Shown: positions 125 to 50,800 of the stretch, in pieces
How the letters are laid out: the number at the start of each line of letters is the position of its first letter
Position numbering within the stretch: position 1 is the first letter of the stretch
Position numbers and translations under genes: made by a program
Notes under the pieces: model-generated
What the model was told of the DNA's origin: nothing
The model's input: only the letters and a program-made list of their open reading frames with translations
Databases searched by the model: none
NCBI GenBank assembly: GCA_900473175.1
Contig: UCKM01000029.1
Location: 1 to 64,000, forward strand
Length of the DNA: 64,000 nt
Reading direction: 5' to 3'
Origin: Hyphomicrobiales bacterium
GTDB lineage: Bacteria; Pseudomonadota; Alphaproteobacteria; Rhizobiales; Rhizobiaceae

Positions 125-245
125 TGACGGTGGGGTGGTGCTTCGCACACACTGCATCCCCGAGCTAGCCCAGAGGGGGTGTCAATCTTGCGGACACCTT
201 CCCCATCCAACGCAGAAGCCCTCACGAATCCATGCTGCCTAACCA

Positions 246-272
246 TGTCGCTTCCTTTGCGCTCGGCGTCGC
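246..272 (+). promoter_or_regulatory. Candidate GlxA/AraC operator upstream of the first MttB-like gene
   Basis: Two direct half-sites, TGTCGC at 246-251 and CGTCGC at 267-272, are 21 bp apart, which is two helical turns. The pair lies 80 bp before the ATG at 352. The same arrangement occurs upstream of three other transcription units of the pathway (10956-10982, 14114-14140 and 26634-26660 on the opposite strand). TGTCGC half-sites in direct repeat are known for the Pseudomonas ArgR regulator, which belongs to the same GlxA-type AraC family as the protein encoded at 22037-23035. Confidence 0.5.
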
Positions 273-351
273 TCACGCCGCGCACGCTGAATGCGCCTCT
301 GGCGATAGTGGCACCATCGCACGTACGGCGTGCAAGCGAAGGGCATGGGCA

Positions 352-1932
352 ATGAGCGAACCTGCAATTGAGATCGAAACAGGCAATTCACCGCGGGATC
401 ACGGCAGGCGCGGCGGTCGGTCACGGCCGCGCAGCGTTGAGAGCGGAGCATTCGATCAGCCGCCGTTCCGCCAGCTCAAAATCCCGTTTGCGCCGACGAA
501 GATCATCTCCGACGACGAGCTGGAATCGATCCATAACGCGTCGCTCAAGGTCTTGCAGGAGATAGGCGTCGAGGTCCTGCATGACGGTGCGCGCGAGATC
601 ATGAAAAAGGCCGGCGCCGATGTGACCCCAGGCTCGATGCGTGTCCATTTCGACAAGGACATGATCCTCGACTATGTCGGGCATGCACCTTCCGAGTTCA
701 CGCTGCACGCTCGCAATCCCGAGCACAACGTGCGTTTCGGCGGCAACAATCTCATTTTCGCGCAGATGGGCTCGGCACCGAATTGCTCCGATACCGATAA
801 TGGCAGGCGCTCAGGCAACCAGGCGGACTTTCGCAATTTCGTCAAGCTTGCCCAGATGCACAACATCATCAACACGACCGGCGGCTATCCGGTGGAACCG
901 ATCGATATTCACCCCTCGGTCCGCCATCTCGAATGCATCCGAGATCTTGCCACGCTTAGCGACAAGGCATTTCACGTCTATTCGCTCGGCAGGGAGCGCA
1001 ATCAGGACGGAATTGAGATCGCCCGGCTCGCCCGTGGCATCAGCCATGAGCAGCTGCAAAATGAAGCATCCTGCTACACCATCATCAACACCAATTCGCC
1101 GCTCAAGCTCGACGTTCCGATGATGGAAGGCATCATCCAGATGTCCGGCAACGGCCAGATCGTCATTGTAACGCCCTTCACGCTTGCGGGAGCGATGGCG
1201 CCGGTGACAATCGCCGGGGCGCTGGTCCAGCAGAACGCCGAGGCGCTAGCCGGCATTTCATTCACGCAGATGGTAAAGAAGGGTGCCCCGGTCGGCTATG
1301 GCGGATTTACCTCTAATGTCGACATGAAGTCCGGCGCTCCCGCTTTCGGTACGCCTGAATACATGAAAGCGCAGTTGGTCGGCGGCCAGCTTGCCCGCCG
1401 CTACGGCATCCCCTATCGCACCTCCAATGTCTGCGCGGCCAATACAGTGGATGCGCAGGCCGCGTACGAATCCGTCTTTTCTCTGTGGGGCGCCATCCAG
1501 GGCGGCGGCAATTTCATGCTGCATTCGGCGGGATGGCTCGAAGGCGGCCTGTGCTGCTCCTATGAAAAAATGATCCTTGATTTCGATCTGCTCCAGATGG
1601 TCGCGGAGTTCCTGACGCCGCTTGATCTGTCGGAGGACGCGCTCGGGGTGGACGCGATGCGCGACGTCGGCCCCGGCGGGCATTTTTTCGGCACGGCCCA
1701 TACCCAGTCTCGTTATAAGACCGCTTTTTACGCACCGATCATCTCGGACTGGCGCAACTATGAAACCTGGCAGGAGGCCGGTTCGCCGATAGCCATCGAG
1801 CGGGCTAACCGCATCTGGAAGGAGCGGCTCGCCACCTACCAGAAGCCGGCAATCGATCCGGCGGTCGAAGAAGAAATCAACGCATTTGTCGCGCGCCGCA
1901 AGTCTGAGGGCGGCGCCCCCACCGACTTCTGA
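352..1932 (+). CDS. MttB-superfamily (non-pyrrolysine) amine:corrinoid methyltransferase, first copy
   Basis: This is a 526-residue member of the trimethylamine methyltransferase (MttB) family. Such enzymes are TIM barrels that transfer a methyl group from a quaternary or tertiary amine to the Co(I) of a corrinoid protein in the cytosol. The frame is full length without an internal amber codon, so it is the pyrrolysine-free type; its relative MtgB of Desulfitobacterium is an established glycine betaine methyltransferase. Motifs such as NTNSPL, TPFTLAGAMAPVT and HSAGWLEGG are shared with the second copy at 9248-10834. Residues 15-28 form an Arg/Gly-rich N-terminal stretch (GRRGGRSRPR). An earlier in-frame ATG at 232 exists, but 352 fits the family and leaves a candidate operator outside the gene. 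A dimethylglycine dehydrogenase-like gene follows 59 bp downstream, which favours glycine betaine or a similar betaine as substrate; this is inference. Confidence 0.9.
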   Translation: MSEPAIEIETGNSPRDHGRRGGRSRPRSVESGAFDQPPFRQLKIPFAPTKIISDDELESIHNASLKVLQEIGVEVLHDGAREIMKKAGADVTPGSMRVHFDKDMILDYVGHAPSEFTLHARNPEHNVRFGGNNLIFAQMGSAPNCSDTDNGRRSGNQADFRNFVKLAQMHNIINTTGGYPVEPIDIHPSVRHLECIRDLATLSDKAFHVYSLGRERNQDGIEIARLARGISHEQLQNEASCYTIINTNSPLKLDVPMMEGIIQMSGNGQIVIVTPFTLAGAMAPVTIAGALVQQNAEALAGISFTQMVKKGAPVGYGGFTSNVDMKSGAPAFGTPEYMKAQLVGGQLARRYGIPYRTSNVCAANTVDAQAAYESVFSLWGAIQGGGNFMLHSAGWLEGGLCCSYEKMILDFDLLQMVAEFLTPLDLSEDALGVDAMRDVGPGGHFFGTAHTQSRYKTAFYAPIISDWRNYETWQEAGSPIAIERANRIWKERLATYQKPAIDPAVEEEINAFVARRKSEGGAPTDF

Positions 1933-1991: not shown

Positions 1992-4568
1992 ATGAAATCG
2001 CACGTTAAAGCAGTTGTCATCGGCGGTGGCGTTGTCGGATGTTCTGTCCTCTATCATTTGGCACGCGCGGGATGGACCGATGTCATGCTGATCGAGCGGT
2101 CGGAACTGACATCCGGCTCGTCCTGGCATGCGGCCGGCGGTTTCCATACGCTCAACGGCGATCCCAACGTTGCCAAGCTCCAGGCTTATACGGTGAGCCT
2201 CTACAAGGAGATCGAAGAGCTCTCCGGCCAGTCGTGCGGTCTTCACCTGACGGGCGGCGTGATGATGGCGGATTCGCCTGAACGGATGGATTTCCTCCGT
2301 CTCGCTCATGCCCGTGGCCGCTATCTCGGCATGGACACCGAACTGATCACGCCATCCGAGGCCAAGGCGATGTTCCCGCTCATGGACGAGACAAATTTCG
2401 TCGGCGCCATGTGGGATCCTGTCGAAGGCCACCTCGACCCGTCGGGCACGACCCATGCTTACGCCAAGGCGGCACGCAAGCTCGGCGCGGAAATCACCTT
2501 GCGCAACCGCGTCGTCGAATTGACGCAAGAAACGGATGGTACCTGGAATGTCGTGACCGAGCAGGGCACGGTCAAGGCCGAGCATGTCGTCAATTGCGGC
2601 GGCCTGTGGGCTCGCGAAGTCGGGCGCATGGTCGGTCTCGAACTGCCGGTTCTTGCCATGGAACACATGTATCTTCTCACCGAAGATGTTCCGGAAGTGA
2701 TGGAGTTCAACAAGTCCACCGGACGCGAACTCATTGGCGTCATGGACTTCAAGGGTGAGATTTATACGCGGCAGGAGCGCAACGGCATCCTGCTCGGCAC
2801 CTATGAGAAGGCGGCAAAGCCCTGGTCGCCTGTCAATACGCCCTGGGATTTCGGCCACGAACTGCTTGCGCCTGATATCGATCGCATCGCGCCATCGCTC
2901 GAAGTCGGATTTCGCCATTTCCCCGGCATTGAAAAGGCCGGCATCAAGCAGATCATCAACGGCCCCTTCACTTTTGCGCCCGATGGCAACCCGCTGGTCG
3001 GCCCGGTTCCGGGCCTCACCAATTATTGGACAGCCTGCGCCGTTATGGCCGGCTTCAGTCAGGGCGGCGGCGTCGGTCTTGCCCTGTCGAACTGGATGGT
3101 GCATGGCGAACCCGGTTTCGACGTATGGGGCATGGATGTCGCCCGCTTCGGCGAATGGGCGACGCTGCGCTATACCAATGCGAAGGTGCGTGAAAACTAT
3201 TCGCGCCGCTTCTCGATCCGCTTCCCCAACGAGGAATTGCCGGCGGCCCGTCCGCAGCAGACAACGCCACTCTACGACACCATGCTGGCGCAGAATGCGG
3301 TGATGGGGGATTCCTGGGGTCTCGAAACACCGCTCTGGTTCGCACCCGAGGGTACAGACCCGCGCGATATCGTTTCGTATCACCGCTCCAATGATTTCGA
3401 GCATATCGGCAATGAAGTCCGGGCGACACGCGAGAGCGTCGGGGTCACCGAGATTGCCAACTTCGCCAAATATGAGGTGACGGGCACCGGCGCCGAAGCG
3501 TTCCTGTCGCGGCTCATGACCAACACGATGCCGAAGACGAGACGGCTCGTCCTCACGCCCATGCTCAACCATGAAGGCAAGCTCATCGGCGACTTCACCA
3601 TTGCCAAGGCAGCCGACGACCGCTTCCTCATCTGGGGATCGTCCGCGGCCCAGCGCTATCACATGCGCTGGTTCCAGAAGCAGCAGCCGAAGGATGGCTC
3701 CGTCCATATTCACCGCTTCGACCAGACGCTGGTGGGCCTCGCAATTGCCGGGCCGAAATCCCGCGATCTCCTTGCCAAGCTTGTCGATGAAGACGTATCG
3801 ACCGCTGCCTTCCGCTTCATGGATTTTCGCGAGATGGCTGTCGGCGGCGCGCCGTGCAAAGTCAACCGCATCTCCTATACGGGTGATCTCGGTTATGAAA
3901 TCTGGATGGAGCCGGCCTATCAGCGGCTTGTCTACAAGGCGATCAAGGATGCCGGCGCCGAATACAACATTGTCGATTTCGGCATGCGCGCCCTGCTGTC
4001 GATGCGGCTTGAAAAGAACTTCCCGACATGGTTCCGCGAGCTGCGCCCGATCTACGGCGTATACGAAGGTTCAATGGACCGCTTCATCAAGCTTTCCAAG
4101 AATGACTTCATCGGTCGCGACATTGCAGCGAAGGAGAAGGCGGAGCTTGATGCCGGCACCAGCACCAAATTGCGCCGCGTGTCCTTCATCATCGACGTGC
4201 CGCATGGCGAAGGGGCCGCGGATGTGATGGGCGATGAACCGATCTGGGCGAAAGTTTCCAAGGATTACGGCACGGTGCAGGCGGGCCACGGCGTGGGCGC
4301 CCCCCGCTTCGATGCAACCGGCGAAGTCGTCGCCAATGCCGGCGACAAGGGCGCCGTACAGGGCGATTGGCGGGTGGTCGGCTGGGTCACGTCGGGCGGC
4401 TACGCTCACTATGTCCAGCATTCGATGGCACAGGGCTATGTTCCGGCAGAACTCGCCACCAGCGAGGCGCAAGGATTGTTCGAAGTCGAAATTCTTGGCG
4501 TCCGGCGCGCGGCCCGCATCAATCTGGAGCCGCCGTTCGATCCGTCAGGCGAAAAGATGCGCGGGTAA
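1992..4568 (+). CDS. FAD-dependent dimethylglycine/sarcosine dehydrogenase-like protein, first copy
   Basis: This is an 858-residue flavoprotein. The N-terminal dinucleotide fold GGGVVGCSVLYHLARAG (about residues 10-26) and the TSGSSWHAAG stretch are typical of the DAO/DMGDH family. The C-terminal half matches the GcvT/aminomethyltransferase fold that binds tetrahydrofolate in dimethylglycine and sarcosine dehydrogenases. The expected reaction is oxidative N-demethylation with formaldehyde units captured as methylene-THF. The start at 1992 follows AGAGGCATAAGGCT. It lies 59 bp after the first MttB-like gene and is probably cotranscribed with it, fitting a betaine to dimethylglycine to sarcosine sequence. 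Its last 24 bp overlap the end of a convergent gene. It is clearly divergent from the paralogue at 24021-26537, so the two may use different substrates. Confidence 0.88.
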   Translation: MKSHVKAVVIGGGVVGCSVLYHLARAGWTDVMLIERSELTSGSSWHAAGGFHTLNGDPNVAKLQAYTVSLYKEIEELSGQSCGLHLTGGVMMADSPERMDFLRLAHARGRYLGMDTELITPSEAKAMFPLMDETNFVGAMWDPVEGHLDPSGTTHAYAKAARKLGAEITLRNRVVELTQETDGTWNVVTEQGTVKAEHVVNCGGLWAREVGRMVGLELPVLAMEHMYLLTEDVPEVMEFNKSTGRELIGVMDFKGEIYTRQERNGILLGTYEKAAKPWSPVNTPWDFGHELLAPDIDRIAPSLEVGFRHFPGIEKAGIKQIINGPFTFAPDGNPLVGPVPGLTNYWTACAVMAGFSQGGGVGLALSNWMVHGEPGFDVWGMDVARFGEWATLRYTNAKVRENYSRRFSIRFPNEELPAARPQQTTPLYDTMLAQNAVMGDSWGLETPLWFAPEGTDPRDIVSYHRSNDFEHIGNEVRATRESVGVTEIANFAKYEVTGTGAEAFLSRLMTNTMPKTRRLVLTPMLNHEGKLIGDFTIAKAADDRFLIWGSSAAQRYHMRWFQKQQPKDGSVHIHRFDQTLVGLAIAGPKSRDLLAKLVDEDVSTAAFRFMDFREMAVGGAPCKVNRISYTGDLGYEIWMEPAYQRLVYKAIKDAGAEYNIVDFGMRALLSMRLEKNFPTWFRELRPIYGVYEGSMDRFIKLSKNDFIGRDIAAKEKAELDAGTSTKLRRVSFIIDVPHGEGAADVMGDEPIWAKVSKDYGTVQAGHGVGAPRFDATGEVVANAGDKGAVQGDWRVVGWVTSGGYAHYVQHSMAQGYVPAELATSEAQGLFEVEILGVRRAARINLEPPFDPSGEKMRG

Positions 4569-5312
4569 TTTCAACGCGGAGATAAAGGGCAGGCCCTTGC
4601 GCCTGCCCGTCCAGCCGACGACCACCAATGCACTCGCCGGCTCGTCATAGCGCTGCGCCAAGGCCCAGGTTTTGCAGTCGATGGCGGCTACATCCGCCCT
4701 GCCCGATGCAACCGCTTCAATCGAGGGGCGATGCCCCCCCGTCTCAACGTGGCTGACGAACAGGTCGAGCCCCTCTCCCAGCGCAGCAAGATCGCGCTGG
4801 ACCGCCAAATAGCCGGACATGGAGTCATGGCTGTTTAAGGCAAAACGCTTGCCACGAATCAATTCGAGCGGCAGCAGGGCTTGTCCATCGGCTGGGGCCG
4901 CAACCGCCGGGCCCTCGCCGCGCCGCATGACCAGCGCACTGGAATAGAGTTCGCCCGCCCCGCCCTCGATGCCGGAATAATCATCCTGTCCGGCGAAGTG
5001 CACGTGAGACTCGAGGCCGAGTTCCATCGGCCCCCAACAGCTCTGGGTGATAAGGAGGTCAGGATGACGCCACAATGTCGGCAGATCGAGCTCGTCGGGT
5101 GGAAGTGTCGCCGGATCGGGAGCAATGACATTGCCCGCCTTGTCCTTGATGCCACCCGGCACTGGCGGAAGATCGGCATTGCGCCGAACCAGATATTCGG
5201 GCGCGTCGTATCCGTTCGCGCGAAGGACACGGCGCATGCTTAGCCACTGCGCGTCCACTTCGGCGCGCCGTTCGGGCAGGTCGTACATCGGCAAAGCCGC
5301 AACAAACGTCAT
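4545..5312 (-). CDS. PhnD-like phosphate/phosphonate-binding domain protein, cytosolic
   Basis: This 255-residue protein resembles the PhnD-type substrate-binding fold of phosphonate ABC transporters, with a buried-core start (TFVAALPMYDLPERRAEVDAQW), a central LLITQSCWGPMEL segment and SGRADVAAIDCKTW near residue 205. No signal peptide or lipobox precedes the domain and no ABC permease or ATPase gene is adjacent, so a transport role is doubtful; a cytosolic ligand sensor or enzyme is possible. Its 3' end overlaps the convergent dehydrogenase gene by 24 bp. The desaturase gene on the same strand ends 9 bp upstream of it, so the two are probably cotranscribed. Confidence 0.7.
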   Translation of the reverse strand: MTFVAALPMYDLPERRAEVDAQWLSMRRVLRANGYDAPEYLVRRNADLPPVPGGIKDKAGNVIAPDPATLPPDELDLPTLWRHPDLLITQSCWGPMELGLESHVHFAGQDDYSGIEGGAGELYSSALVMRRGEGPAVAAPADGQALLPLELIRGKRFALNSHDSMSGYLAVQRDLAALGEGLDLFVSHVETGGHRPSIEAVASGRADVAAIDCKTWALAQRYDEPASALVVVGWTGRRKGLPFISALKLPAHLFA

Positions 5313-5321
5313 ATGGGAAGG

Positions 5322-6368
5322 CTACTCTTTAGGCGGCTCGGCGGGAATAGGAAGGGTGGAACCGCCCTGCAGGCTGATGCCATGGCGTCGTGGACGGAAG
5401 GCGCGTCCCGGTGCAGGCTCGCGGCGCAGTACGGGATGAACGACATCCTGCTTCTTGCGGAAGGCGTAGGCACGCAGGATTTCGAAATAATTGCGAAAGA
5501 CATAACCGCCATTCATCCGCTGCCACTCCTCGCGCTGTTCGCGATAGAGCTGCGGCAGGTCGTACCAGGGAACTGTCGGCCGCTTGTGGTGGACAAAATG
5601 CAGGTTGTTGTTGAGGAAAATCAGCGCCAGCGGCGATTTTTCGACGATGACGGTGCGCCCGTCCGGCCGCTCCGACCATTGATGTTCGCAGTAGCTGCGG
5701 ATGGCGATGATCGACAGTCCCCCATAGACGGAGGTTACCGCATAAAGCCAAAGCGGGATCCCGAAGACGAACTCGACGATGACGAGGACCGGAACGAGGC
5801 CAAGCCCATGCAGCAGCCACGCGGTGCGGGTTTTTTTATCACCCCCCGTAACCAGTTTCACCTCATTGATCAGGAAGCCGACAACCATCAGTGCCGGGCC
5901 AATGACAATCCGGCCCACCAAGGAATTATTCCAGTTGAGCAGCACCCTGACAGGCGCCGGCAGCTTTTCCCAATCGCCCAAGGCGCGGTAGTAGCTTTCC
6001 GGGTCATCGTAAGGGTCGGTCAGCCGTTCATCGGCGTGATGCTTAAGATGCAAATGCTTGTAGCGGCGATACGGAAAGACGAGGCCGATCGGCAGTGAAA
6101 CCAGGATTTCGTTGATTGTTCCGCTCCGAGTCGGATGACCGTGCAGAGCCTCATGTTGCAATGAGGAGTGGAAAGCAACGGCCACCGCCATCAAGCCAAA
6201 TGCGACGATCGGCAAGGCCGGGAATAGGTAAAAGCCCGATGCGAACCATAATCCGTAGCACGCGGTCATCAGGCCAATGGTGGGCCACTCAATGCCGAAG
6301 CGCTTTCGGGTCTGTTGAGGGTGAATTGAAGGTATGTGGGTATGTGTCTCTGATTCCATGATTTTCAT
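5322..6368 (-). CDS. Membrane fatty acid desaturase family protein
   Basis: This protein of about 348 residues has the di-iron histidine boxes of the membrane desaturase/hydroxylase family: HEALHG, HLKHH and HFVHH, with hydrophobic segments before and between them. Such enzymes use O2 and a reductase partner to desaturate or hydroxylate lipids or other hydrophobic substrates. The start is uncertain: ATG at 6368 or 6359 and a TTG at 6395 are in frame. It is divergent from an XRE regulator gene and shares a roughly 110-bp promoter region with it. Its place inside a methylated-amine cluster is unexplained; the substrate could be a membrane lipid, or an amine, and nothing visible decides this. 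Confidence 0.8.
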   Translation of the reverse strand: MKIMESETHTHIPSIHPQQTRKRFGIEWPTIGLMTACYGLWFASGFYLFPALPIVAFGLMAVAVAFHSSLQHEALHGHPTRSGTINEILVSLPIGLVFPYRRYKHLHLKHHADERLTDPYDDPESYYRALGDWEKLPAPVRVLLNWNNSLVGRIVIGPALMVVGFLINEVKLVTGGDKKTRTAWLLHGLGLVPVLVIVEFVFGIPLWLYAVTSVYGGLSIIAIRSYCEHQWSERPDGRTVIVEKSPLALIFLNNNLHFVHHKRPTVPWYDLPQLYREQREEWQRMNGGYVFRNYFEILRAYAFRKKQDVVHPVLRREPAPGRAFRPRRHGISLQGGSTLPIPAEPPKE

Positions 6369-6423
6369 GGTCTCACTGTCAGGAGCTGTCAGCAATGCGA
6401 TTTTTGTGAGAAAGCGTTGATTT

Positions 6424-7360: not shown

Positions 7361-7394
7361 CGTTATCTAACCAATCTTCCAAGGAATGCGCCTT

Positions 7395-8408
7395 ATGACC
7401 ATTGCCAATCCACTCGCTGATCTCATCGCCGAAAAGGGCGTTCTGCTGGCCGACGGCGCAACCGGTACGAACCTGTTTGCCTCCGGTCTCGAGGCCGGCG
7501 AAGCGCCGGAACTGTGGAATGAGGCGCAACCCGAGAAGATCACTGCCTTGCACCAGGGCTTCGTCGATGCCGGCGCCGATATCATTCTTACCAACTCCTT
7601 TGGCGGCACGCGGCATCGCCTGAAACTGCATCATGCGCAGGATCGTGTGTTCGAGCTCAACAAGAAGGCCGCTGAGCTTGCCCGCGATGTTGCGGATAGG
7701 GCCGAACGCAAGGTCATTGTCGCCGGTTCTGTCGGCCCGACCGGCGAATTGCTGGTTCCGCTGGGCGCGCTGACCGAAGAAGACGCGGTTGCAGCTTTTA
7801 CGGAACAGCTTGAAGGTTTGAAGGCTGGCGGCGTCGATGTTGCGTGGATCGAGACAATGTCCGCGCCGGGCGAAATCCGCGCTGCGGCCGAGGCTGCGGT
7901 CAAGGTCGGCCTTCCTTATGTCTACACGGGCTCGTTCGATACCGCCGGCAAGACGATGATGGGCCTGCCACCCAAGGAAATTCACGGCGTCGTCGATGGC
8001 CTCGGCGAAAAGCCGGTTGCCGTTGGTGCCAATTGCGGCGTCGGCGCATCGGATATCCTCGCCTCGCTCCTCGACATGAGTGAAGCCGATCCGTCAGCCA
8101 CCATCGTCATCAAGGGTAATTGCGGTATTCCGGAGTTCCGCGGTTCGGAAATTTTCTATTCCGGTACGCCGGACCTGATGGCCAATTACGCTCACCTCGC
8201 GATTGATGGCGGTGCCAAGATCGTTGGCGGCTGCTGCGGCACGTCCTTCGAGCATCTGGCCGCCATGCGCAAGGCACTCGACAGCCACGCGCAGGGCCCT
8301 CGCCCGACGGTCGAGACAATTATCGAAACGATTGGGCCGATGCGCAACAAGCTCGCCGCCCATGCGGACGATACGCCAAAGCGTGAGCGCCGCGGGCGTC
8401 GCGGCTAA
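7395..8408 (+). CDS. bmt: Betaine-homocysteine S-methyltransferase (bmt type)
   Basis: This 337-residue homocysteine S-methyltransferase transfers a methyl group, probably from glycine betaine, to homocysteine to make methionine. It shows the family's ADGATGTNL start, NCGVG and the zinc-binding GGCCGTS signature near residue 280. The start at 7395 follows AAGGA at 7381-7385; an ATG at 7386 is also in frame. The last nine residues (KRERRGRRG) are an Arg/Gly-rich tail of the kind seen on four other enzymes of this region. Sinorhizobium meliloti Bmt is the established relative. A corrinoid or methyl-THF methyl donor cannot be excluded given the neighbours. A palindromic operator candidate precedes it and a hairpin terminator follows. 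Confidence 0.88.
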   Translation: MTIANPLADLIAEKGVLLADGATGTNLFASGLEAGEAPELWNEAQPEKITALHQGFVDAGADIILTNSFGGTRHRLKLHHAQDRVFELNKKAAELARDVADRAERKVIVAGSVGPTGELLVPLGALTEEDAVAAFTEQLEGLKAGGVDVAWIETMSAPGEIRAAAEAAVKVGLPYVYTGSFDTAGKTMMGLPPKEIHGVVDGLGEKPVAVGANCGVGASDILASLLDMSEADPSATIVIKGNCGIPEFRGSEIFYSGTPDLMANYAHLAIDGGAKIVGGCCGTSFEHLAAMRKALDSHAQGPRPTVETIIETIGPMRNKLAAHADDTPKRERRGRRG

Positions 8409-8470: not shown

Positions 8471-9157
8471 TCAGGCCCGTGCAAACGCAGCCATGTGAAA
8501 CTGCTGCTGATCCGGCACGTAGGCGTGGTTCCGTCCAACCGGACAGGCAAGGCGAGCAAGGCATCCGCCATCCATGCACCTCTTTCCCTCATGCGTTGCA
8601 AGATAATCCCGGCAACGATCCACCGCGAAACCTGCGCCATCGAAAGCGCCGACCGGACAGGCGACGAGACACGGCTTTTCAACGCAGCTGTCGCAGGGGT
8701 GAGCAACCGCCTTCAGTTCCGGAAACCTGATGGAATGCTTGAATAGCAGCGCACCGCGAAATGCTTGCCACAGCCCGTACCGCGGATGGATCAGCAATCC
8801 CAGCGGCGAGGCTTTTAGCCCTTCTGCCCGCCTCGCCCACTGCTGGAACGGCAGATAAGGCGTGTCGGACGGGAAAACGGCTCTCGCGCCAAGTGCCGCC
8901 GCCGCGTCATTGAGGACGCTCTTCGACCACGTGTCGAGCGGATCGGACGCATCGGCGTGGAACCGGTGCCATTCGGCAAACGGCAGCCAGATGGCCGAGC
9001 CGAAATGACCGATGAGGACGACGCTTTGCGGCGCCTCATCATTCACGCGCTGGGGAATGTCCTCCTCGGCGTCGAAATTGAAGCCGCCGCGCGGAACGAG
9101 ACCATGGGGTTCCAGCGCGGCGGCGATTTGATCAAGCATGGGATCGGCAATGGCCAT
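8471..9157 (-). CDS. CblC/MMACHC-like domain fused to a two-cluster ferredoxin region
   Basis: This 228-residue protein has two parts. Residues 1-150 contain IHPRYGLWQAFRG (123-135) after a DPLD motif (72-75). As I recall the human cobalamin-trafficking protein MMACHC (CblC), it has the closely similar IHPRFGGWFAIRG at the equivalent place, after a DPVD motif. The C-terminal part has eight cysteines in iron-sulfur arrangement: C155-x2-C158-x4-C163-x3-C167-P and C182, C194, C199, C205-P. The spacing of the first set departs from the usual CxxCxxCxxxCP. The fold is also related to QueG and reductive dehalogenases, which bind cobamides beside two 4Fe-4S clusters. It sits between bmt and the second MttB-like gene, in the same direction as the latter, 90 bp downstream. 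Inference: a corrinoid-binding or corrinoid-reducing electron-transfer protein serving the methyltransferase system. Databases would probably call it only a 4Fe-4S binding protein. Confidence 0.7.
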   Translation of the reverse strand: MAIADPMLDQIAAALEPHGLVPRGGFNFDAEEDIPQRVNDEAPQSVVLIGHFGSAIWLPFAEWHRFHADASDPLDTWSKSVLNDAAAALGARAVFPSDTPYLPFQQWARRAEGLKASPLGLLIHPRYGLWQAFRGALLFKHSIRFPELKAVAHPCDSCVEKPCLVACPVGAFDGAGFAVDRCRDYLATHEGKRCMDGGCLARLACPVGRNHAYVPDQQQFHMAAFARA

Positions 9158-9247: not shown

Positions 9248-10834
9248 TCAAGTGAAGGCGTCGGGCATGGACGCCTTCTTCTTGGCGATGAACTCTTTCA
9301 GCGATTCGTCGATCGCAGGGTCGAGATACGGCGCTTCGTAGGTATCGAGCCAGCGGCGTGCGAGTTCGTTGGCGCGCTGGTCCGCGCGTTTTTCGCCTTC
9401 GGCCAGCCATTGCTCATACGAGTTGTTGTCGGCGATGTTGGACCGATAGAATGCCGACTGGAAATTCGCCTGGGTGTGGTCGCAACCGAGATAGTGGCTG
9501 CCGGGTCCGACCTGGCGTATCGCATCCATCGCCTGGCCGTTCTCCGAAAGATCAACGCCTGCCGCGAATTTCTGCGCCATGCCCAGCTGGTCGATATCCA
9601 TCATGAATTTTTCATAGGACGAGACCAGACCGCCTTCGAGCCAGCCAGCCGAATGCAGAACGAAATTGGTGCCGGCAAGCAAGGTCGAGTTCAGCGTATT
9701 TGCGCTCTCATAGGCCGCCTGCGCATCGGAAACCTTCGAAGCGCAAAGCGAGCCGCCGGTACGGAAGGGCAATCCGAGACGGCGTGCGAGCTGCGCCGCG
9801 CCGTATGAAACCAGAGATGGCTCCGGCGTGCCGAAAGTGGGCGCACCCGACTGCATGGAAATCGAGGAGGCGAATGTTCCAAACAGAACTGGCGCACCGG
9901 GGCGGATCAGCTGCGTGAACGACGCTCCAGCGAGAACTTCAGCCAGAACCTGGGTCAATGTGCCCGCCACTGTCACAGGGCTCATGGCGCCGGCGAGAAT
10001 GAATGGCGTGACGATGCAAGCCTGGTTGTTGCGCGCATAGACTTTCAATGCGCCCACCATGGTCTCGTCGAACACCATCGGCGAATTCGCGTTGATCAGG
10101 CTCGTCAGTACGGTGTTTTGCTCGAGATAGTTCTCGCCAAACACCAGTTTGCACATGGAAATCGTGTCTTCAGCGCGTTCCGGTGCGGTAACTGAGCCCA
10201 TGAACGGCTTATCGGAATACTTTATATGGGCGTAGACCATATCAAGGTGACGCTTATTGACCGGCACATCGACCGGCTCGCAAACCGTCCCGCCCGAGTG
10301 GTGGATCGATGGCGCCATATAGGCGAGTTTGACGAAATTGTTGAAGTCTTCAATCGTCGCGTAGCGGCGATTGCCATCAAGATCGCGCACGAAGGGCGGC
10401 CCGTAGACCGGAGCGAAAACCGTTGCATCGCCGCCGATCTGCACAGACCGCTCAGGATTGCGGGCATGTTGCGTGTAGATCGAAGGTGCAGTCTTCAGCA
10501 GGGAACGTGGGAGCCCCTTGGGAAAGTGCACGCGCTCGCCTTTGACGTCGGCACCAGCTTCTTTCCATAACGCCAGGGCTTCCGCGTCGTCGCGAAATTC
10601 GATGCCGATCTCTTCGAGAACGGTGTCGGCGTTCGCCTCGATCAGCGCGAGCCCCTCTTCGTCGAGCACTTCATAGGTGCGAATATTGCGCGTGATATAG
10701 GTCAGCGACTTGCCGGGCCCACCGCCTGAACGGGCCGCGCGCCGTGCCGCGGCACCGGCACCTGCGCCACGACCGCGGCGTCCACCACTGGATTCCGCTT
10801 CCGCGGGTGCATCGACTGGCGTTTCCTCAATCAT
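9248..10834 (-). CDS. MttB-superfamily (non-pyrrolysine) amine:corrinoid methyltransferase, second copy
   Basis: This 528-residue paralogue of the protein at 352-1932 has no internal amber codon. Conserved stretches include NANSPM, TPFILAGAMSPVTVAG and HSAGWLEGG. It should demethylate a quaternary or tertiary amine onto the corrinoid protein encoded by the divergent gene at 11079. The ATG at 10834 follows AAGGAGAGAAG, while a longer in-frame start lies at 10885. Residues 17-39 are Arg/Gly/Ala-rich (GGRRGRGAGAGAAARRAARS), which is not part of the barrel. The two copies may serve different betaines, as MtgB and MtpB do in anaerobes; the substrate of this one is not evident. Confidence 0.88.
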   Translation of the reverse strand: MIEETPVDAPAEAESSGGRRGRGAGAGAAARRAARSGGGPGKSLTYITRNIRTYEVLDEEGLALIEANADTVLEEIGIEFRDDAEALALWKEAGADVKGERVHFPKGLPRSLLKTAPSIYTQHARNPERSVQIGGDATVFAPVYGPPFVRDLDGNRRYATIEDFNNFVKLAYMAPSIHHSGGTVCEPVDVPVNKRHLDMVYAHIKYSDKPFMGSVTAPERAEDTISMCKLVFGENYLEQNTVLTSLINANSPMVFDETMVGALKVYARNNQACIVTPFILAGAMSPVTVAGTLTQVLAEVLAGASFTQLIRPGAPVLFGTFASSISMQSGAPTFGTPEPSLVSYGAAQLARRLGLPFRTGGSLCASKVSDAQAAYESANTLNSTLLAGTNFVLHSAGWLEGGLVSSYEKFMMDIDQLGMAQKFAAGVDLSENGQAMDAIRQVGPGSHYLGCDHTQANFQSAFYRSNIADNNSYEQWLAEGEKRADQRANELARRWLDTYEAPYLDPAIDESLKEFIAKKKASMPDAFT

Positions 10835-10920
10835 TTTCTTCTCTCCTTGCGCTACGCAAGCGCAGACTTTTCTCAATCGAACCAAATCCTAACCCCCATA
10901 CCCACAGGGGCGTTTCCGTG

Positions 10921-10982: not shown

Positions 10983-11078
10983 TTTTAAGCAATGCGTTTT
11001 CAGCAACTTGCCCGATATGTTAAACGAATGCCAGCTATGATACAGACCTGTGCATAACGCGTGAAAGGAAGCAGACCC

Positions 11079-11774
11079 ATGGCCGATGATGAAATCATTC
11101 TTTCGGAGCTTTCGGACGATGAACTCGTCGAGCAAATGCATGATGATCTGTATGACGGGTTGAAGGAAGAGATCGAGGAAGGCACGCAGATTCTGCTTGC
11201 TCGCGGCTGGGTGCCCTATAAGGTGCTGACCGAAGCCCTCGTTGAAGGCATGCGCATCGTCGGCGAGGACTTCCGTGACGGCATTCTCTTTGTGCCGGAG
11301 GTTCTGCTGTCAGCCAACGCCATGAAGGCGGGCATGTTCATCCTTCGTCCCCTCCTCGCCGCAACCGGCGCGCCCAAGCAGGGCAAGCTCGTCATTGGCA
11401 CAGTCAAAGGCGACATTCACGATATCGGCAAGAACCTCGTCGGCATGATGATGGAAGGCGCTGGCTTCGATGTCATCGATCTTGGCATCAATAATCCCGT
11501 CGAGAACTACCTTGCGGCAATCGAGGAGCATCAGCCCGACATCCTTGGCATGTCGGCCCTTCTCACAACGACGATGCCCTATATGAAGGTCGTTATCGAT
11601 ACGATGAAGGAAAAGGGGATCCGCGACGATTACGTCGTGCTCGTCGGTGGTGCTCCGCTCAACGAAGAATTCGGCAAGGCCGTTGGCGCCGATGCTTATT
11701 GCCGTGATGCGGCGGTCGCCGTCGAGACTGCCAAATCGTTCATGAAGCGCAAGCACAACCAGATGTCCGCCTGA
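11079..11774 (+). CDS. Corrinoid-binding methyl carrier protein (MtgC/MttC type)
   Basis: This 231-residue protein has an N-terminal helical cap domain and a C-terminal Rossmann-type B12 domain. The cobalt-ligating motif G-D112-I-H114-D-I-G117-K-N is present, with H114 as the expected lower axial ligand, followed by a typical downstream GG (LVGGAPL). It carries the methyl group between the MttB-like enzymes and the methyl-folate transferase. The start at 11079 follows AAGGAAG. It is the only such carrier in the window, so both MttB-like proteins probably share it. A strong hairpin follows the stop. Confidence 0.93.
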   Translation: MADDEIILSELSDDELVEQMHDDLYDGLKEEIEEGTQILLARGWVPYKVLTEALVEGMRIVGEDFRDGILFVPEVLLSANAMKAGMFILRPLLAATGAPKQGKLVIGTVKGDIHDIGKNLVGMMMEGAGFDVIDLGINNPVENYLAAIEEHQPDILGMSALLTTTMPYMKVVIDTMKEKGIRDDYVVLVGGAPLNEEFGKAVGADAYCRDAAVAVETAKSFMKRKHNQMSA

Positions 11775-12098: not shown

Positions 12099-12722
12099 AT
12101 GAATGTTCGCCAAAAGTCAACGAAATCAATAGAAACCGTGCGGGTCATCGCATGCGGGATGATTGCGCGTGAAATTCTGGCGATACGCGAACAGTTTGGT
12201 CTCGACCACATTGATCTGAAATGCCTGCCCGCGATTTATCATCACTACCCGGACAAGATCGCACCCTCGGTGGATCGCGCCATTGTCAAGGCTAAGGCCG
12301 AAGGCATCAACCGGATCTTTGTCGGCTATGCCGATTGCGGCACGGGCGGCATGCTTGATCGCGTATGCGAAAAGCATGGCGTCGAGCGCATTGCTGGCCC
12401 GCATTGCTTCTCCTTCTATGTCGGCAATGAAGCCTTCGCCTCGCAGTGGGACGACGACATGACGTCGTTTTTCATGACCGACTTCCTCGCCCGCCACTTC
12501 GAGGCCTTCATGGTGAAGCCTCTCGGCCTCGATCGCCACCCGGAATTGCGTGAAATGTATTTCGGAAACTATACCAAGATGATCTACATGGCGCAGACGG
12601 ACGATCCGGAGCTCAGCCGCAAGGCCGAACAGGCCGCCGCGTTTCTCGGCCTTGCTTACGAGCGCCGCCTGACCGGTTATGGCGATCTCGTGCCGGCGCT
12701 GACGGCGGCTGCCGTTCGCTAG
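12099..12722 (+). CDS. DUF1638 family protein
   Basis: This 207-residue soluble protein matches the DUF1638 pattern: VRVIACGMIAREI at the start, then LPAIYHHYPDKIAP, FVGYADCGTGGM and GPHCFSFYVG. Conserved cysteines and histidines (C and H in CGMI, YADCG and GPHCF) suggest a metal or corrinoid site. Family members are often found beside corrinoid methyltransferases, and this gene sits between the corrinoid protein and the MTHFR-MeTr-RACo operon. Its reaction is unknown; an ancillary role in the methyl transfer system is inferred from position. Confidence 0.82.
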   Translation: MNVRQKSTKSIETVRVIACGMIAREILAIREQFGLDHIDLKCLPAIYHHYPDKIAPSVDRAIVKAKAEGINRIFVGYADCGTGGMLDRVCEKHGVERIAGPHCFSFYVGNEAFASQWDDDMTSFFMTDFLARHFEAFMVKPLGLDRHPELREMYFGNYTKMIYMAQTDDPELSRKAEQAAAFLGLAYERRLTGYGDLVPALTAAAVR

Positions 12723-14140: not shown

Positions 14141-14201
14141 GAGACAGCAAGCTTAACCCCTGATATTCCGGCAAAAGGGTCGTTATCGGAGGATGAATTG
14201 C

Positions 14202-14504
14202 ATGGCTGATCTCATTGTCGTTTATTGGCGGGATATTCCTGCTCAAGTGACCGTCAAGAAAGGCCGCCAGGCAGCAAAGCGTGAGCTTCCCCTCCGCTTT
14301 ACCGAAGCCATCGACATGTGTGCGATGCGTATCGGCGCCAAGGACTCAGATGCTTATCTGGCCGAATGGCGCCGCGGCACCCCGGTGCCCGTGAGTGATG
14401 ATCTGGATACCGAGGCTGATGCAGCCCTCGCGCAAATTGACAAAGAATATGATCGGGAACGCCTTGTGGCGCTTGTAAAGGCAGGTGGACATGACAATTC
14501 ATGA
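14202..14504 (+). CDS. Small 'virulence factor' family protein (PF13769-like)
   Basis: This 100-residue soluble protein begins MADLIVVYWRDIPAQV and contains RFTEAIDMCAMRIGAKDSDAY, the pattern of the small proteins databases name virulence factor. ATG at 14202 is preferred because GGAGG lies 10 bp upstream; ATG at 14193 is too close to it. Its stop overlaps the start of the MTHFR gene by 14 bp, so the two are translationally coupled. No biochemical role is known. Coupling to MTHFR and MeTr suggests an accessory of one-carbon transfer rather than virulence. Confidence 0.8.
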   Translation: MADLIVVYWRDIPAQVTVKKGRQAAKRELPLRFTEAIDMCAMRIGAKDSDAYLAEWRRGTPVPVSDDLDTEADAALAQIDKEYDRERLVALVKAGGHDNS

Positions 14505-15393
14505 ATTGAGAGCGAAGCCAATGACAAAGATCGCAGCATCCATCGAAGTGGCGGCACGCCAGGCTATCGAATCGCAGGATTTGCCTGGTCTGTTTCCAGC
14601 CGGTACCCGCGTCTACATCACCGACATGGGCACCGACAGCGTCGATACGCTGACGTCAGCGGCCAAGCGCGTTCATGACCTCGGCTACAAGCCGGTGCCG
14701 CATTTCGCCTCGCGCCGCCTTTCGACCAGGGCTGCCCTCGAAACCCGCATCCGCCGCGCCGCTCAGGAAGCAGGCGTCACCGACGTTCTCGTCATTGGTG
14801 GCGGGCTCGAGCGTCAGGCCGGCGAATTCTCCTCGACCATGGAAGTCCTGGAAACGGGTTTCTTCGACAAGTATGGCATCACCGAAATGGGTGTGGCCGG
14901 GCATCCTGAAGGCAGCCCCGAATTCTCCGAGGCTGTCGCAATTGAAGCACTGCGCCTGAAAAAGAATTTCGGCGAGCGCACTGGCGCCAAGCTGCGCGTC
15001 GTCACCCAGTTCGGCTTCGATGCCGACCGCTTCATCCGCTATGCTGAATCGCTGCGCGAACATGGCGTCGACCTGCCGGTTCACCTTGGCGTGGCAGGTC
15101 CGGCCAAGATCACGACGCTGATCAAATATGCGGCCATGTGCGGCGTCGGCAATTCGATCAGCTTCCTGAAGAAGAACGCCCTGTCTTTGACTGCGCTTGC
15201 TACCAGCCATTCGCCGGAAGGCGTCGTCGGCCCGATCGAACAGCATGCGATTGCCAACCCGACGTCGGCCATCAAACAGATCCACCTTTTCCCGTTCGGC
15301 GGCCTGAAAAAGTCGTCTGAATGGCTTGTCGAGCGTGGCTCCTGGACAGTAAACACCGCCTCCCAAGCATCCGCAAACGCAGCAGCCAGCTGA
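14491..15393 (+). CDS. Methylenetetrahydrofolate reductase family protein (pathway-specific)
   Basis: This 300-residue protein has the MTHFR TIM-barrel pattern, with PHFASRRLSTRAALETRI, LVIGGG, GITEMGVAGHPEGSPE, TQFGFDADRF and GVAGPA. In a demethylation pathway it would run toward methyl-THF oxidation, giving methylene-THF, with FAD as cofactor. The start at 14491 overlaps the preceding small gene; ATG at 14521 is the alternative. The MeTr gene follows after 11 bp. It is shorter and more divergent than biosynthetic MetF, consistent with a dedicated catabolic role. Confidence 0.88.
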   Translation: MTIHELRAKPMTKIAASIEVAARQAIESQDLPGLFPAGTRVYITDMGTDSVDTLTSAAKRVHDLGYKPVPHFASRRLSTRAALETRIRRAAQEAGVTDVLVIGGGLERQAGEFSSTMEVLETGFFDKYGITEMGVAGHPEGSPEFSEAVAIEALRLKKNFGERTGAKLRVVTQFGFDADRFIRYAESLREHGVDLPVHLGVAGPAKITTLIKYAAMCGVGNSISFLKKNALSLTALATSHSPEGVVGPIEQHAIANPTSAIKQIHLFPFGGLKKSSEWLVERGSWTVNTASQASANAAAS

Positions 15394-15404
15394 GGACTCC
15401 CTGA

Positions 15405-16367
15405 ATGACCCGCACGATCGTTGCCTCGGCGACCAAAGAAATCATTATCGGATTTGATCAACCTTTCTGCGTTATCGGCGAAAGGATCAATCCGACCGGC
15501 CGCAAGAAGCTCGCGGCGGAGATGATCGCCGGCAATTTTGACACGGTTATCAAGGACGCACTGGAACAGGTCGCCGCCGGCGCGACCATGCTCGATGTCA
15601 ATGCGGGCGTGACTGCGGTCGATCCGAACGCGACCGAGCCTGGCCTTCTGGTCAAGACACTGGAGATCGTACAGAACCTCGTCGATGTACCGCTGTCCAT
15701 CGACAGTTCCGTTACCGCTGCCATCGAAGCCGCGTTGAAGGTTGCCAAGGGTCGCCCCCTCGTCAACTCGGTCACGGGTGAAGAGGAAAAGCTCGAAGCC
15801 ATCCTGCCTCTGATCAAAAAGTACAATGTGCCGGTCGTTGCCATCTCCAATGACGAGACCGGCATTTCCATGGACCCCGACGTCCGCTTTGCCGTCGCCA
15901 AGAAGATCGTTGAGCGCGCTGCCGATTTCGGCATCCCGGCGCATGACATTGTCGTCGATCCGCTGGTCATGCCGATTGGCGCGCTGGGCGACGCCGGACG
16001 CCAGGTATTCGCGCTGCTGCGGCGCCTGCGCGAAGAACTCAAGGTCAACACCACCTGCGGCCTCTCCAATATTTCCTTCGGTCTGCCACACCGTCATGGC
16101 ATCAATGCCGGCTTCATCCCCATGGTGATCGGCGCCGGCATGACATCGGCGATCATGAACCCCTGCCGCCCGCAGGAAATGGAAGCCGTTCATGCGGCCA
16201 ATGTCCTCAACGGCACTGACGCCAATTGCACCTACTGGATCAAGAAATATCGCGACCACCAGCCGGCAGCACCCGGCGCAGCGCCGGCCGTTTCCGTGCC
16301 CGCCGACAGCGCAGGCGGTGGCCGTCGCCGTGGCGGCCGCGAAGCGCGGCGCGGCGTCGCAGGCTGA
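15405..16367 (+). CDS. Methyltetrahydrofolate:corrinoid methyltransferase (pterin-binding, MeTr-like)
   Basis: This 320-residue protein has a pterin-binding TIM barrel: GERINPTGRKKL (residues 26-37), LDVNAGV, SIDSS, NSVTGEEEK and GLSNISFGLPHR. It should transfer the methyl group from the corrinoid protein to tetrahydrofolate in the cytosol. The last 17 residues or so (GGGRRRGGREARRG) form an Arg/Gly tail beyond the barrel, preceded by an Ala/Pro-rich linker. It is directly downstream of MTHFR, giving the order corrinoid methyl to THF to methylene-THF. Confidence 0.92.
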   Translation: MTRTIVASATKEIIIGFDQPFCVIGERINPTGRKKLAAEMIAGNFDTVIKDALEQVAAGATMLDVNAGVTAVDPNATEPGLLVKTLEIVQNLVDVPLSIDSSVTAAIEAALKVAKGRPLVNSVTGEEEKLEAILPLIKKYNVPVVAISNDETGISMDPDVRFAVAKKIVERAADFGIPAHDIVVDPLVMPIGALGDAGRQVFALLRRLREELKVNTTCGLSNISFGLPHRHGINAGFIPMVIGAGMTSAIMNPCRPQEMEAVHAANVLNGTDANCTYWIKKYRDHQPAAPGAAPAVSVPADSAGGGRRRGGREARRGVAG

Positions 16368-16400
16368 CCGTTTGCGCTTGGCAAACAGCTCGGCCTAATA

Positions 16401-16432
16401 AGGCGGTGGGGCAGCGATACTGCCCCTCGCCT
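16401..16432 (+). other. Intercistronic hairpin between MeTr and RACo genes
   Basis: AGGCGgtGGGGCAG-cgata-CTGCCCCtCGCCT folds into a long stem with small internal bulges, ending about 22 bp before the GTG start at 16454. There is no T-run. It could set relative expression by RNA processing or attenuation, or mark the end of most operon transcripts. Confidence 0.6.
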
Positions 16433-16453
16433 GTACGTATTGGAGCATCGATC

Positions 16454-18538
16454 GTGAACGCACCCGTCAAAGCACCAGAGGCATCGGCAAAGGAAGCGCT
16501 CGTTCTCTTCATGCCGTCGGGCAAGCGTGGCCGCTTTGCGGTTGGCACCCCAATTCTGGAAGCCGCTCGCACGCTTGGCGTCTATGTGGAAAGTGTTTGC
16601 GGCGGCCGCGGCATTTGTGGACGCTGTCAGGTCGAAGTGCAGGAAGGCCGCTTTGCCAAGCACGGGATCACCTCCTCCAACGACCACATTTCAGAATTTG
16701 GACCGAAGGAACAGCGCTATGCCGAAAAGCGCGACCTGAAGGAGGGCCGGCGCCTTTCCTGCTCCGCGACCATTCTCGGTGATCTGGTCGTCGACGTTCC
16801 GCAGGACGTTCAGGTCAACGCCCAGGTCGTCCGCAAGGACGCCGACACGCGTATCATCGAGCGCAACCCCGCCGTCCACATGTGCTATGTCGAAGTCGAA
16901 GAGCCCGACATGCACAAGCCTCTCGGCGATCTCGACCGCCTGAAGGCAGCGCTCGAGAAGGAATGGGGCGTTCGCAATCTCGAGGTCGACGCGCATATCC
17001 TGCCGAATGTGCAGAAAATCCTGCGCAAGGGCGAGTGGGGCGTCACCGCCGCCATCCATCACGATGAAGAGACCTCGCGGCCGACCATGATCGGCCTTTG
17101 GCCGGGGCTCAAGAACGAAGCCTATGGCATCGCCTGCGATATCGGCTCGACCACCATCGCCATGCATCTGTCATCATTGCTTTCGGTTCGTACAATCGCA
17201 TCGGCGGGAACATCCAATCCGCAAATTCGCTTCGGCGAAGATCTGATGAGCCGCGTCTCCTATGTCATGATGAACCCGGATGGCCGGCACGCCATGACCG
17301 CGGCTGTGCGCGAGGCGATCAATGCGCTGATCGACAAGGTCTGCGCTGAGGGCGGTGTTGCGCGCGAAGACATTCTCGATGCGGTCTTTGTCGGCAATCC
17401 GATCATGCACCACCTCTTCCTTGGCATCGATCCGACCGAACTTGGCGGCGCACCATTTGCCTTGGCGGTCTCCGGCGCGGTTCACCTCAAATCGTCCGAC
17501 ATCGGCCTGCCGATGAATCCTGGAACACGCATTTACATGCTGCCCTGCATCGCCGGCCATGTCGGGGCCGATGCCGCCGGCGCGACGCTGGCAGAAGGGC
17601 CGCACCGCCAGGACGAGATGATGCTTCTCGTCGATGTCGGCACCAATGCCGAAATCGTGCTTGGCAATCGGCAGCGCACCGTCGCCGCATCCTCGCCGAC
17701 CGGCCCGGCATTTGAAGGTGCGGAGATTTCTGGCGGTCAACGCGCTGCTCCAGGCGCGATCGAGCGCGTGCGCATCGATCCTGTCACGCTCGAACCGCGC
17801 TTTCGCGTCATCGGTACGGAACAATGGTCTGATGAACCCGGCTTTGCAGAGGCTGTCCAGGCCAGCGGCATCACCGGAATCTGTGGTTCCGCCATTATCG
17901 AAGTCATCGCGGAGATGTACCTTTCCGGAATCATTTCAGAGGATGGCGTCGTCGATGGCAGTCTCGGCGCAAAGTCGCCGCGCGTCATGGCGACCGGGCG
18001 AACGTTCTCCTATCTTCTGCACGAAGGTTCGCCGACGATCACCATTACCCAAAATGACGTGCGCGCGATCCAGCTGGCCAAGGCCGCGCTCTATGCCGGC
18101 GTCAAGCTCCTGATGGATAAGCTCGGTATCGATCACGTTGACCAGATCCGGTTTGCCGGCGCGTTCGGCTCGTTTATCGATCCCAAGTACGCGATGGTTC
18201 TCGGCCTCATCCCCGATTGCGATCTCGACAAGGTCAAGGCCGTGGGTAACGCTGCCGGCACCGGCGCCCGCATGGCGCTCCTCAACCGCAACTATCGCCG
18301 CGAAATCGAGGAAACGGTGACGCGCATCGAGAAGATCGAAACTGCACTGGAGCCGAAGTTCCAGGAACATTTCGTCTATGCCATGGCGATGCCGAACAAG
18401 ATCGACCCCTTCCCGAAACTGTCGCAGGCTGTGACCTTGCCCCCGCGCAAGAATGTCAGCGAGGATGGCGTTGCAGGCGACGCAACACCGCGGCGCCGTT
18501 CGCGCGAGGATCGCGCTGCCAGGCGCAACCGCGAATAA
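16454..18538 (+). CDS. RACo-type reductive activator of corrinoid proteins
   Basis: This 694-residue protein starts at GTG 16454, preceded by GGAG. Residues 15-105 are a plant-type 2Fe-2S ferredoxin domain with C49-x5-C55-x2-C58 and C103. The remainder is the DUF4445/ASKHA ATPase with phosphate-binding ACDIGSTTIAMH, DVGTNAEI and GxCGSA motifs. Such proteins reduce accidentally oxidised Co(II) corrinoid to Co(I) using ATP. The C-terminus (PRRRSREDRAARRNRE) is Arg-rich. It completes the operon of MTHFR and MeTr. A short insert after AMHL (about residues 240-255) is present compared with the family pattern I know. Confidence 0.92.
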   Translation: MNAPVKAPEASAKEALVLFMPSGKRGRFAVGTPILEAARTLGVYVESVCGGRGICGRCQVEVQEGRFAKHGITSSNDHISEFGPKEQRYAEKRDLKEGRRLSCSATILGDLVVDVPQDVQVNAQVVRKDADTRIIERNPAVHMCYVEVEEPDMHKPLGDLDRLKAALEKEWGVRNLEVDAHILPNVQKILRKGEWGVTAAIHHDEETSRPTMIGLWPGLKNEAYGIACDIGSTTIAMHLSSLLSVRTIASAGTSNPQIRFGEDLMSRVSYVMMNPDGRHAMTAAVREAINALIDKVCAEGGVAREDILDAVFVGNPIMHHLFLGIDPTELGGAPFALAVSGAVHLKSSDIGLPMNPGTRIYMLPCIAGHVGADAAGATLAEGPHRQDEMMLLVDVGTNAEIVLGNRQRTVAASSPTGPAFEGAEISGGQRAAPGAIERVRIDPVTLEPRFRVIGTEQWSDEPGFAEAVQASGITGICGSAIIEVIAEMYLSGIISEDGVVDGSLGAKSPRVMATGRTFSYLLHEGSPTITITQNDVRAIQLAKAALYAGVKLLMDKLGIDHVDQIRFAGAFGSFIDPKYAMVLGLIPDCDLDKVKAVGNAAGTGARMALLNRNYRREIEETVTRIEKIETALEPKFQEHFVYAMAMPNKIDPFPKLSQAVTLPPRKNVSEDGVAGDATPRRRSREDRAARRNRE

Positions 18539-47513: not shown

Positions 47514-49358
<1,845 letters not shown>

Positions 49359-49497
49359 TCAAACAGCCGCAGCGTCGTTAAATCCTGAATAAACGACGCC
49401 GCGAGCGCGGAAACCCAGTTCTGTGCCGGAAGGATGAAAGGAGTTCGCGAGCCCGAACAGGAATCAAGAGCCAATTGGCCCGCGAAAACATTTGCAC

Positions 49498-49596
49498 CGT
49501 CCCTACGCCAGTATGAACTGGATCAGGTTCAACGGGTCACTGCGCTTGCTCAAAGCCAGCAGTATCTCAGCCCCTTGTCGGGACTCCCCTGGTGAA
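49498..49596 (-). promoter_or_regulatory. TPP riboswitch (THI element)
   Basis: Read on the minus strand, the sequence runs GGGGAGTCCCGACAAGGGGCTGAGAT, then after a variable stem GAACCTGATCCAGTTCATACTGGCGTAGGGA, which are the two conserved halves of the TPP aptamer (each motif quoted here in part). It lies 179 nt before thiC. It should switch off the operon when thiamine pyrophosphate is plentiful. Confidence 0.97.
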
Positions 49597-49692
49597 TGGT
49601 TCTAAGAGAGCCGCCCGCGACGCTCTTGTCAAGCGGGCGACTGCGTCATCAGCCGCGCAGCGGCTCCAGTGCTGTTGCTTCGCGCAAAACGA

Positions 49693-50724: not shown

Positions 50725-50800
<76 letters not shown>

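Follow-up and report, generated by a model that had tools for sequence, protein, structure and literature searches.

A CblC-like protein with two predicted iron–sulfur cluster sites, probably a self-powered reductase for vitamin B12, encoded beside corrinoid methyltransferase genes

Proteins that combine a cobamide with two [4Fe-4S] clusters have been described as the class III architecture (PMC4646009), and the passages concerned of Payne et al. (2015; PMC4646009) state that further cobamide/[4Fe-4S] families may exist and note the lack of a distinct motif for cobalamin binding. The same source presents CblC, the cobalamin processing protein of animals (MMACHC/CblC; PF16690), as lacking a ferredoxin part. 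Bacterial removal of the upper ligand of cobalamin is represented by BtuM, a membrane protein that decyanates vitamin B12 and uses a cysteine ligand (PMC6072759). The RACo/RamA corrinoid activators are ATP-driven in methanogens (PMC5764234). The MtgBCDE betaine demethylase/split methionine synthase has been described in roseobacters and noted in Sinorhizobium (S.) meliloti (PMC12478193, PMC5764234), and a DUF1638 homologue in Phaeobacter has a genetic link to B12 reactivation (PMC5764234). Here, we analyzed a gene at positions 8471..9157 (minus strand) of a 64,000-nucleotide stretch (the window) of contig UCKM01000029.1 from a Hyphomicrobiales bacterium. The gene encodes a bacterial CblC-like protein with a C-terminal ferredoxin part, and lies in a cluster with the same parts as the MtgBCDE system, namely, bmt, an MttB-like protein, a corrinoid protein, a methyltetrahydrofolate protein, a RamA-like protein, and DUF1638.

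The gene is an open reading frame (ORF) of 228 residues with an ATG start, located where a preliminary description based on the nucleotide letters had placed it; the reading frame, conserved residues, predicted fold with its matches, co-occurrence, and neighborhoods were obtained directly. According to the family alignments, predicted model, and fold matches, the protein would consist of two modules. Residues ~1–150 are predicted to form a cobamide-binding module of the type common to MMACHC/CblC and QueG, including DPLD at residues 72–75 and IHPRYGLWQAFRG at residues 123–135 with R134, both found at the positions previously claimed. The C-terminal ~75 residues are predicted to hold two [4Fe-4S] clusters (residues 155–205) in a placement like that of QueG and RdhA. 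There are exactly eight Cys residues in the protein, every one after the motif as had been proposed (155, 158, 163, 167, 182, 194, 199, and 205), with the spacing C-x2-C-x4-C-x3-CP ... C-x11-C-x4-C-x5-CP and 23 residues from the last Cys to the C-terminus. The model and sequence together agree with the class III architecture, in which a predicted nitroreductase-like cobamide module is followed by an eight-Cys ferredoxin.

Scanning genome contigs yielded 146 relatives, of which 80 were kept (48–70% identity), mostly from Phyllobacterium, Mesorhizobium, and Ensifer. Alignment of these homologues with the window protein showed 39 invariant columns in 81 sequences, including D75, H124, G128, W130, R134, and all eight Cys residues (81/81), and Pfam MMACHC was matched at E ≤ 1 by 80 of the 81 (best E 1.6e-4); therefore, the conserved feature at 8471..9157 is more than chance. 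Divergent members were included in an alignment of 77 sequences, of which 21 came from the set of 81, 55 from loci recovered by searching whole genomes, and one from a plasmid. Here, R134 was conserved in 77/77, G128 in 76/77, W130 in 73/77, and D75 in 72/77, while H124 was found in 60/77 with Asn at this position in 16. All eight Cys residues were retained in 74/77, the exceptions being one sequence with seven, a short Methylibium copy with five, and L146 with four. In a separate alignment of 62 sequences, R134, C155, C158, and C163 were present in 62/62, and W57, P73, D75, P96, P103, G128, and W130 of the N-terminal module were nearly invariant. The divergent L146 member (L146:3140-4024), with four of the eight cluster Cys residues left, scored 20.1 bits with Pfam MMACHC and is a possible intermediate between CblC and the form with two clusters. 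The homologue on the Methylibium petroleiphilum plasmid (L192:7878-8498) looks truncated, with five of the eight Cys positions in the annotated protein and two pieces in tblastn.

The human MMACHC motif given in the preliminary description, IHPRFGGWFAIRG, matches the PDB chain sequences. The sequence alignments do not extend to the region of the DPVD proposed there for MMACHC. Residue 119 of the query aligns with residue 146 of PDB chain 3sby_A (construct 1–244), and R134 therefore aligns with MMACHC residue 161; this equivalent of Arg161 was R134 in 77/77 sequences. Structure prediction gave a model with a confident MMACHC-type fold, and the fold search matched this model to both MMACHC and QueG, with MMACHC ranked above QueG. 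The reading of a CblC-like domain joined to a ferredoxin part was thereby supported at the level of a predicted model.

Next, we compared the protein with QueG and RdhA. The QueG profile TIGR00276 gave 15.3 bits on the window protein (curated cut-off, 200), and the predicted model could be aligned to the QueG structure 5d0b over 183 residues. QueG (epoxyqueuosine reductase) carries a C-terminal HEAT domain, which is absent from the window protein, and has another Cys spacing and Leu at the position equivalent to Arg134. PF08331 (DUF1730) matched none of the 81 family members, whereas two real QueG proteins did match, and the same genome encodes a full separate QueG (G000:C23; 457 bits). The window protein is much shorter than RdhA reductive dehalogenases and was not among the matches of the RdhA profile TIGR02486 at E ≤ 0.01. 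A search of 190 genomes of the class returned 45 matches at E ≤ 0.001, comprising 38 strong (E ≤ 1e-20) and seven weak matches, and a search of 249 genomes of the phylum returned 44, including 17 in family f157 and two in f155, both outside the class. Family members scored at least 44 bits on the A1 profile, the lowest value being that of G116, a divergent member of the CblC-like family. The CblC-like plus ferredoxin family is, as judged from sequence, separate from QueG, because the weak matches examined (at most 29 bits) were identified as QueG or as QueG/RDH-like proteins, of which some carry an SCP2 domain. ORFs of 434–495 residues in the same class (L147:3132-4616, L148:3406-4743, and L149:3514-4815) combine a QueG/reductive-dehalogenase-like Fe-S region with a C-terminal SCP2 (sterol carrier) domain, which passes the Pfam cut-off in L147 and L148 and narrowly misses it in L149; these proteins may also be related to the cobamide/[4Fe-4S] class. 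The window protein scored above the cut-off of no Pfam or NCBIfam model, and the divergent members scanned scored above that of no Pfam model.

To relate the family to corrinoid systems, we used the same 190 class genomes (168 genera), in which RACo was found in 41, DUF1638 in 34, MTTB in 40, and cobN above the cut-off in 59; these genomes are not independent, and the odds ratios are without tree correction. RACo was present in 28/38 genomes with strong members vs. 13/152 others (odds ratio 30), DUF1638 in 25/38 vs. 9/152 (31), MTTB in 28/38 vs. 12/152 (33), and RACo or MTTB in 30/38 vs. 13/152 (40), whereas the ratio for cobN was 8 (26/38 vs. 33/152). The association with RACo held both in genomes with cobN (23/26 members vs. 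10/33 others) and in those without it (5/12 vs. 3/119), and cobN had no added association inside genomes with or without RACo. The family tracks the RACo/MttB corrinoid-methyltransferase system independently of B12 synthesis, and RACo was present in all 12 member genomes tested of class family f24. B12-binding proteins were found in 22/22 tested member genomes without MTTB, a weak result because 12 of 14 control genomes have them as well.

Genomic contexts were examined for the same relationship. In the window, an MttB superfamily gene, MtgB-like (9248..10885, minus strand; PF06253, 782 bits), is located directly 5' of the CblC-like gene on the same strand with a gap of 90 bp. An MttB gene occupies the 5' side on the same strand in 78 of the 80 loci L002–L081, at most 97 bp from the open frame in 65 of these 78, and the neighbors of the relatives, as in the window, are MttB, MtgC, DUF1638, and RACo. 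The same MttB arrangement was found on S. meliloti pSymB, where the CblC-like gene is annotated as "ferredoxin", and on Paracoccus aminovorans plasmid IV, where it is annotated as "hypothetical protein". Two distant members lie within cobamide nucleotide-loop/salvage operons: one is the plasmid copy of Methylibium petroleiphilum, found at the operon end (70 bits to the A1 profile), and the other is G315. The neighborhoods therefore suggest a link with the handling of cobamides at large and not just with MttB.

Given a predicted CblC fold joined to two iron–sulfur cluster sites, the protein probably acts as a self-powered reductase, making vitamin B12 ready for use or restoring it, for example, for betaine-demethylating enzymes. 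On balance, we lean toward a self-reducing CblC: driven by its Fe-S clusters, the protein would reduce cobamide and remove the upper ligand, and would in this way provide MtgC and other B12-dependent enzymes with cobamide or restore the cobamide they use. Such a protein would take up cob(III/II)amide in the base-off state, and electrons from a cellular low-potential donor would pass through the two clusters to cobalt. The cobalt would then be reduced and its upper ligand (hydroxo, cyano, or alkyl) removed, and the resulting cob(II)/cob(I)amide would either be handed to MtgC, the corrinoid protein of the cluster, or enter adenosylation and salvage. This would be the task of CblC performed with built-in Fe-S clusters in place of a flavin or glutathione reductant, and likewise the task of BtuM, which is in contrast a membrane protein with a cysteine ligand. 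No relation of BtuM to the family was noticed, none having been searched for.

The architecture is a known one of the CblC/QueG type in a new combination, and the role is probably new. The family looks like a further one of the cobamide/[4Fe-4S] class, of the kind whose existence Payne et al. (2015) considered possible. We see about an even chance that QueG and the reductive dehalogenases are here joined by another base-off cobamide/[4Fe-4S] family, one that links the CblC and QueG/RdhA lineages in sequence and fold. In this reading, its members would act as self-sufficient CblC proteins of bacteria, using their own clusters to reduce cobamide that is newly taken up or damaged; some bacteria would employ them in betaine demethylation and others in B12 salvage at large. 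The PxYGxW..R motif with eight spaced Cys residues provides a handle for finding further cobamide/[4Fe-4S] families, and the protein is a candidate for B12 maintenance in the betaine-demethylating/methionine-synthesizing system of marine bacteria and S. meliloti outlined in PMC12478193. A literature search of open-licence papers apparently returned no description of a CblC-like plus ferredoxin family in the portions covered; the main text of PMC12478193 contains zero occurrences of "ferredoxin", "4Fe-4S", or "iron-sulfur", and ferredoxin in the passages concerned of PMC5764234 means other proteins.

Several observations weigh against a self-reducing CblC. Pfam MMACHC gave 18.8 bits on the window protein (curated cut-off, 27) and the PDB matches had E values of 0.17–0.22, the sequence match alone being weak. 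Only two of the 84 Foldseek rows for the predicted model were better than E 0.001, and the comparisons with MMACHC gave TM-scores of 0.39–0.48 and root mean square deviations of 8.4–10.1 Å. The sequence alignments end before Arg206 and Arg230 of the MMACHC glutathione pocket, in what is the Cys region here. A shared fold by itself says nothing of function, and we infer that the protein binds cobamide and that its clusters are occupied, as well as what it catalyzes, where its electrons come from, and which protein is the acceptor. The close synteny among L002–L081 is partly due to shared ancestry. Away from the rhizobial-type cluster, the gene stands by itself in most cases: MttB, MtgC, MtgD, RACo, or DUF1638 was present within the DNA retrieved for 5/34 class loci, and cob genes lie beside one of the 16 f157 loci fetched (G315). 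The family was absent from 13 of the 41 RACo genomes, and the CblC-like gene is therefore not obligatory. Moreover, the Phaeobacter genetic screen for methionine synthesis, in the passages concerned, names RamA-like and DUF1638 genes and no CblC-like one, the presence of the gene in that species not having been checked (PMC5764234).

The same data can be read in other ways. The protein might be a dedicated activator or electron donor of MttB/MtgC–RACo, feeding RACo or inactive cob(II)amide on MtgC with no processing of free cobamide and with the fold used for docking. This explanation, which we regard as unlikely but worth keeping in mind, agrees with the strong co-occurrence with RACo and MTTB, with the MttB, MtgC, DUF1638, and RACo genes adjoining the gene in the window and its relatives, and with the proximity of MtgC and DUF1638 in L132 and L142 and of MtgD and RACo in L134. 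However, RACo and MTTB are both absent from eight of the 38 class members, and in the 19 member genomes that were tested beyond the class (17 from f157 and two from f155), MTTB was found in 0/19 and RACo in 4/19; both results count against an exclusive link, as do the two members in salvage operons. For the co-occurrence with RACo and MttB-like genes that the preliminary description suggested examining, the class gave RACo or MTTB in 30/38 members, and the 19 sampled genomes beyond it gave no MTTB.

A new catalytic reductase of the QueG/RdhA type, keeping cobamide as a bound cofactor and reducing a small molecule, appears improbable. The module order of QueG, with the predicted cobamide module preceding the ferredoxin over the 183 residues aligned to 5d0b, would fit such an enzyme, as would a local hhalign probability of 94.5 between the 77-sequence set and 20 QueG sequences, but hhalign with A1 gave 75.7 in local and 58.1 in global mode. 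The local alignment stops before the DYH catalytic motif given for QueG in PMC4646009. The protein also has no QueG-like C-terminal substrate domain, ending at 228 residues; MMACHC stands above QueG in the fold ranking and shares R134; and those contexts that are informative concern corrinoid methyl transfer or the handling of cobamide, no pathway for a substrate being obvious from them. We consider it very improbable that the protein is a plain electron-transfer ferredoxin with a degenerate N-terminal domain, as the S. meliloti annotation and sub-threshold matches to 4Fe-4S models would have it, given that the N-terminal module is conserved too, with R134 invariant and a confident MMACHC-type fold in the model. 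A truncated or decaying QueG, to which the sub-threshold match of 15.3 bits could point, is refuted for practical purposes by the separate full QueG, the lack of a PF08331 match in all 81 members, and the score gap on the A1 profile (at least 44 bits for members vs. at most 29 bits for the QueG and QueG/RDH-like proteins examined).

The remaining genes of the cluster surround the CblC-like and MttB genes. Betaine–homocysteine S-methyltransferase (bmt), the MtgE-like part of a split methionine synthase, is encoded at 7386..8408 (plus strand; PRK07534, 560.6 bits, cut-off 338); this match and that of PF06253 confirmed both neighbors named in the preliminary description. Beyond the MttB gene, all on the plus strand, are genes for an MtgC-like corrinoid protein (11061..11774; PF02310 and PF02607; best NCBIfam NF047996 at 215 bits, under its cut-off of 370), a DUF1638 protein (12099..12722; PF07796, 90.7 bits), an MTHFR-like protein (14485..15393; PF02219, 35 bits, cut-off 24), an MtgD-like methyltetrahydrofolate:corrinoid methyltransferase (15405..16367; PRK07535, 398 bits, cut-off 259), and a RACo/RamA-like protein for the reductive activation of corrinoid proteins, which has a 2Fe-2S domain at its N-terminus (16226..18538). 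The listed TTG start of the last ORF overlaps MtgD and is probably too early. Keeping cobalt reduced is a likely related task of RACo/RamA and the CblC-like protein in this shared neighborhood, but the RACo domains (PF14574, 302 bits; PF17651, PF17650, and PF00111) differ from the CblC-like protein, and the cluster already has RACo. A second MttB superfamily methyltransferase is encoded at 232..1932 (plus strand; PF06253, 669 bits).

A small protein of Pfam "Virulence_fact" (PF13769) is encoded inside the methyl-transfer cluster at 14193–14504 and was present in 69 of the 111 loci examined, many of which do not extend far enough to include it; the name of the family appears to be a misnomer. 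Two genes at 4545–6395 accompany the cluster in 51/111 and 55/111 loci (phmmer with the window proteins) and are tentatively labeled PhnD-like and fatty-acid-desaturase-like. Elsewhere in the window, a thiamine pyrophosphate riboswitch is located at 49482–49600 (minus strand) upstream of a 601-residue ORF (47514–49319), and a tRNA is located at 50728–50800.
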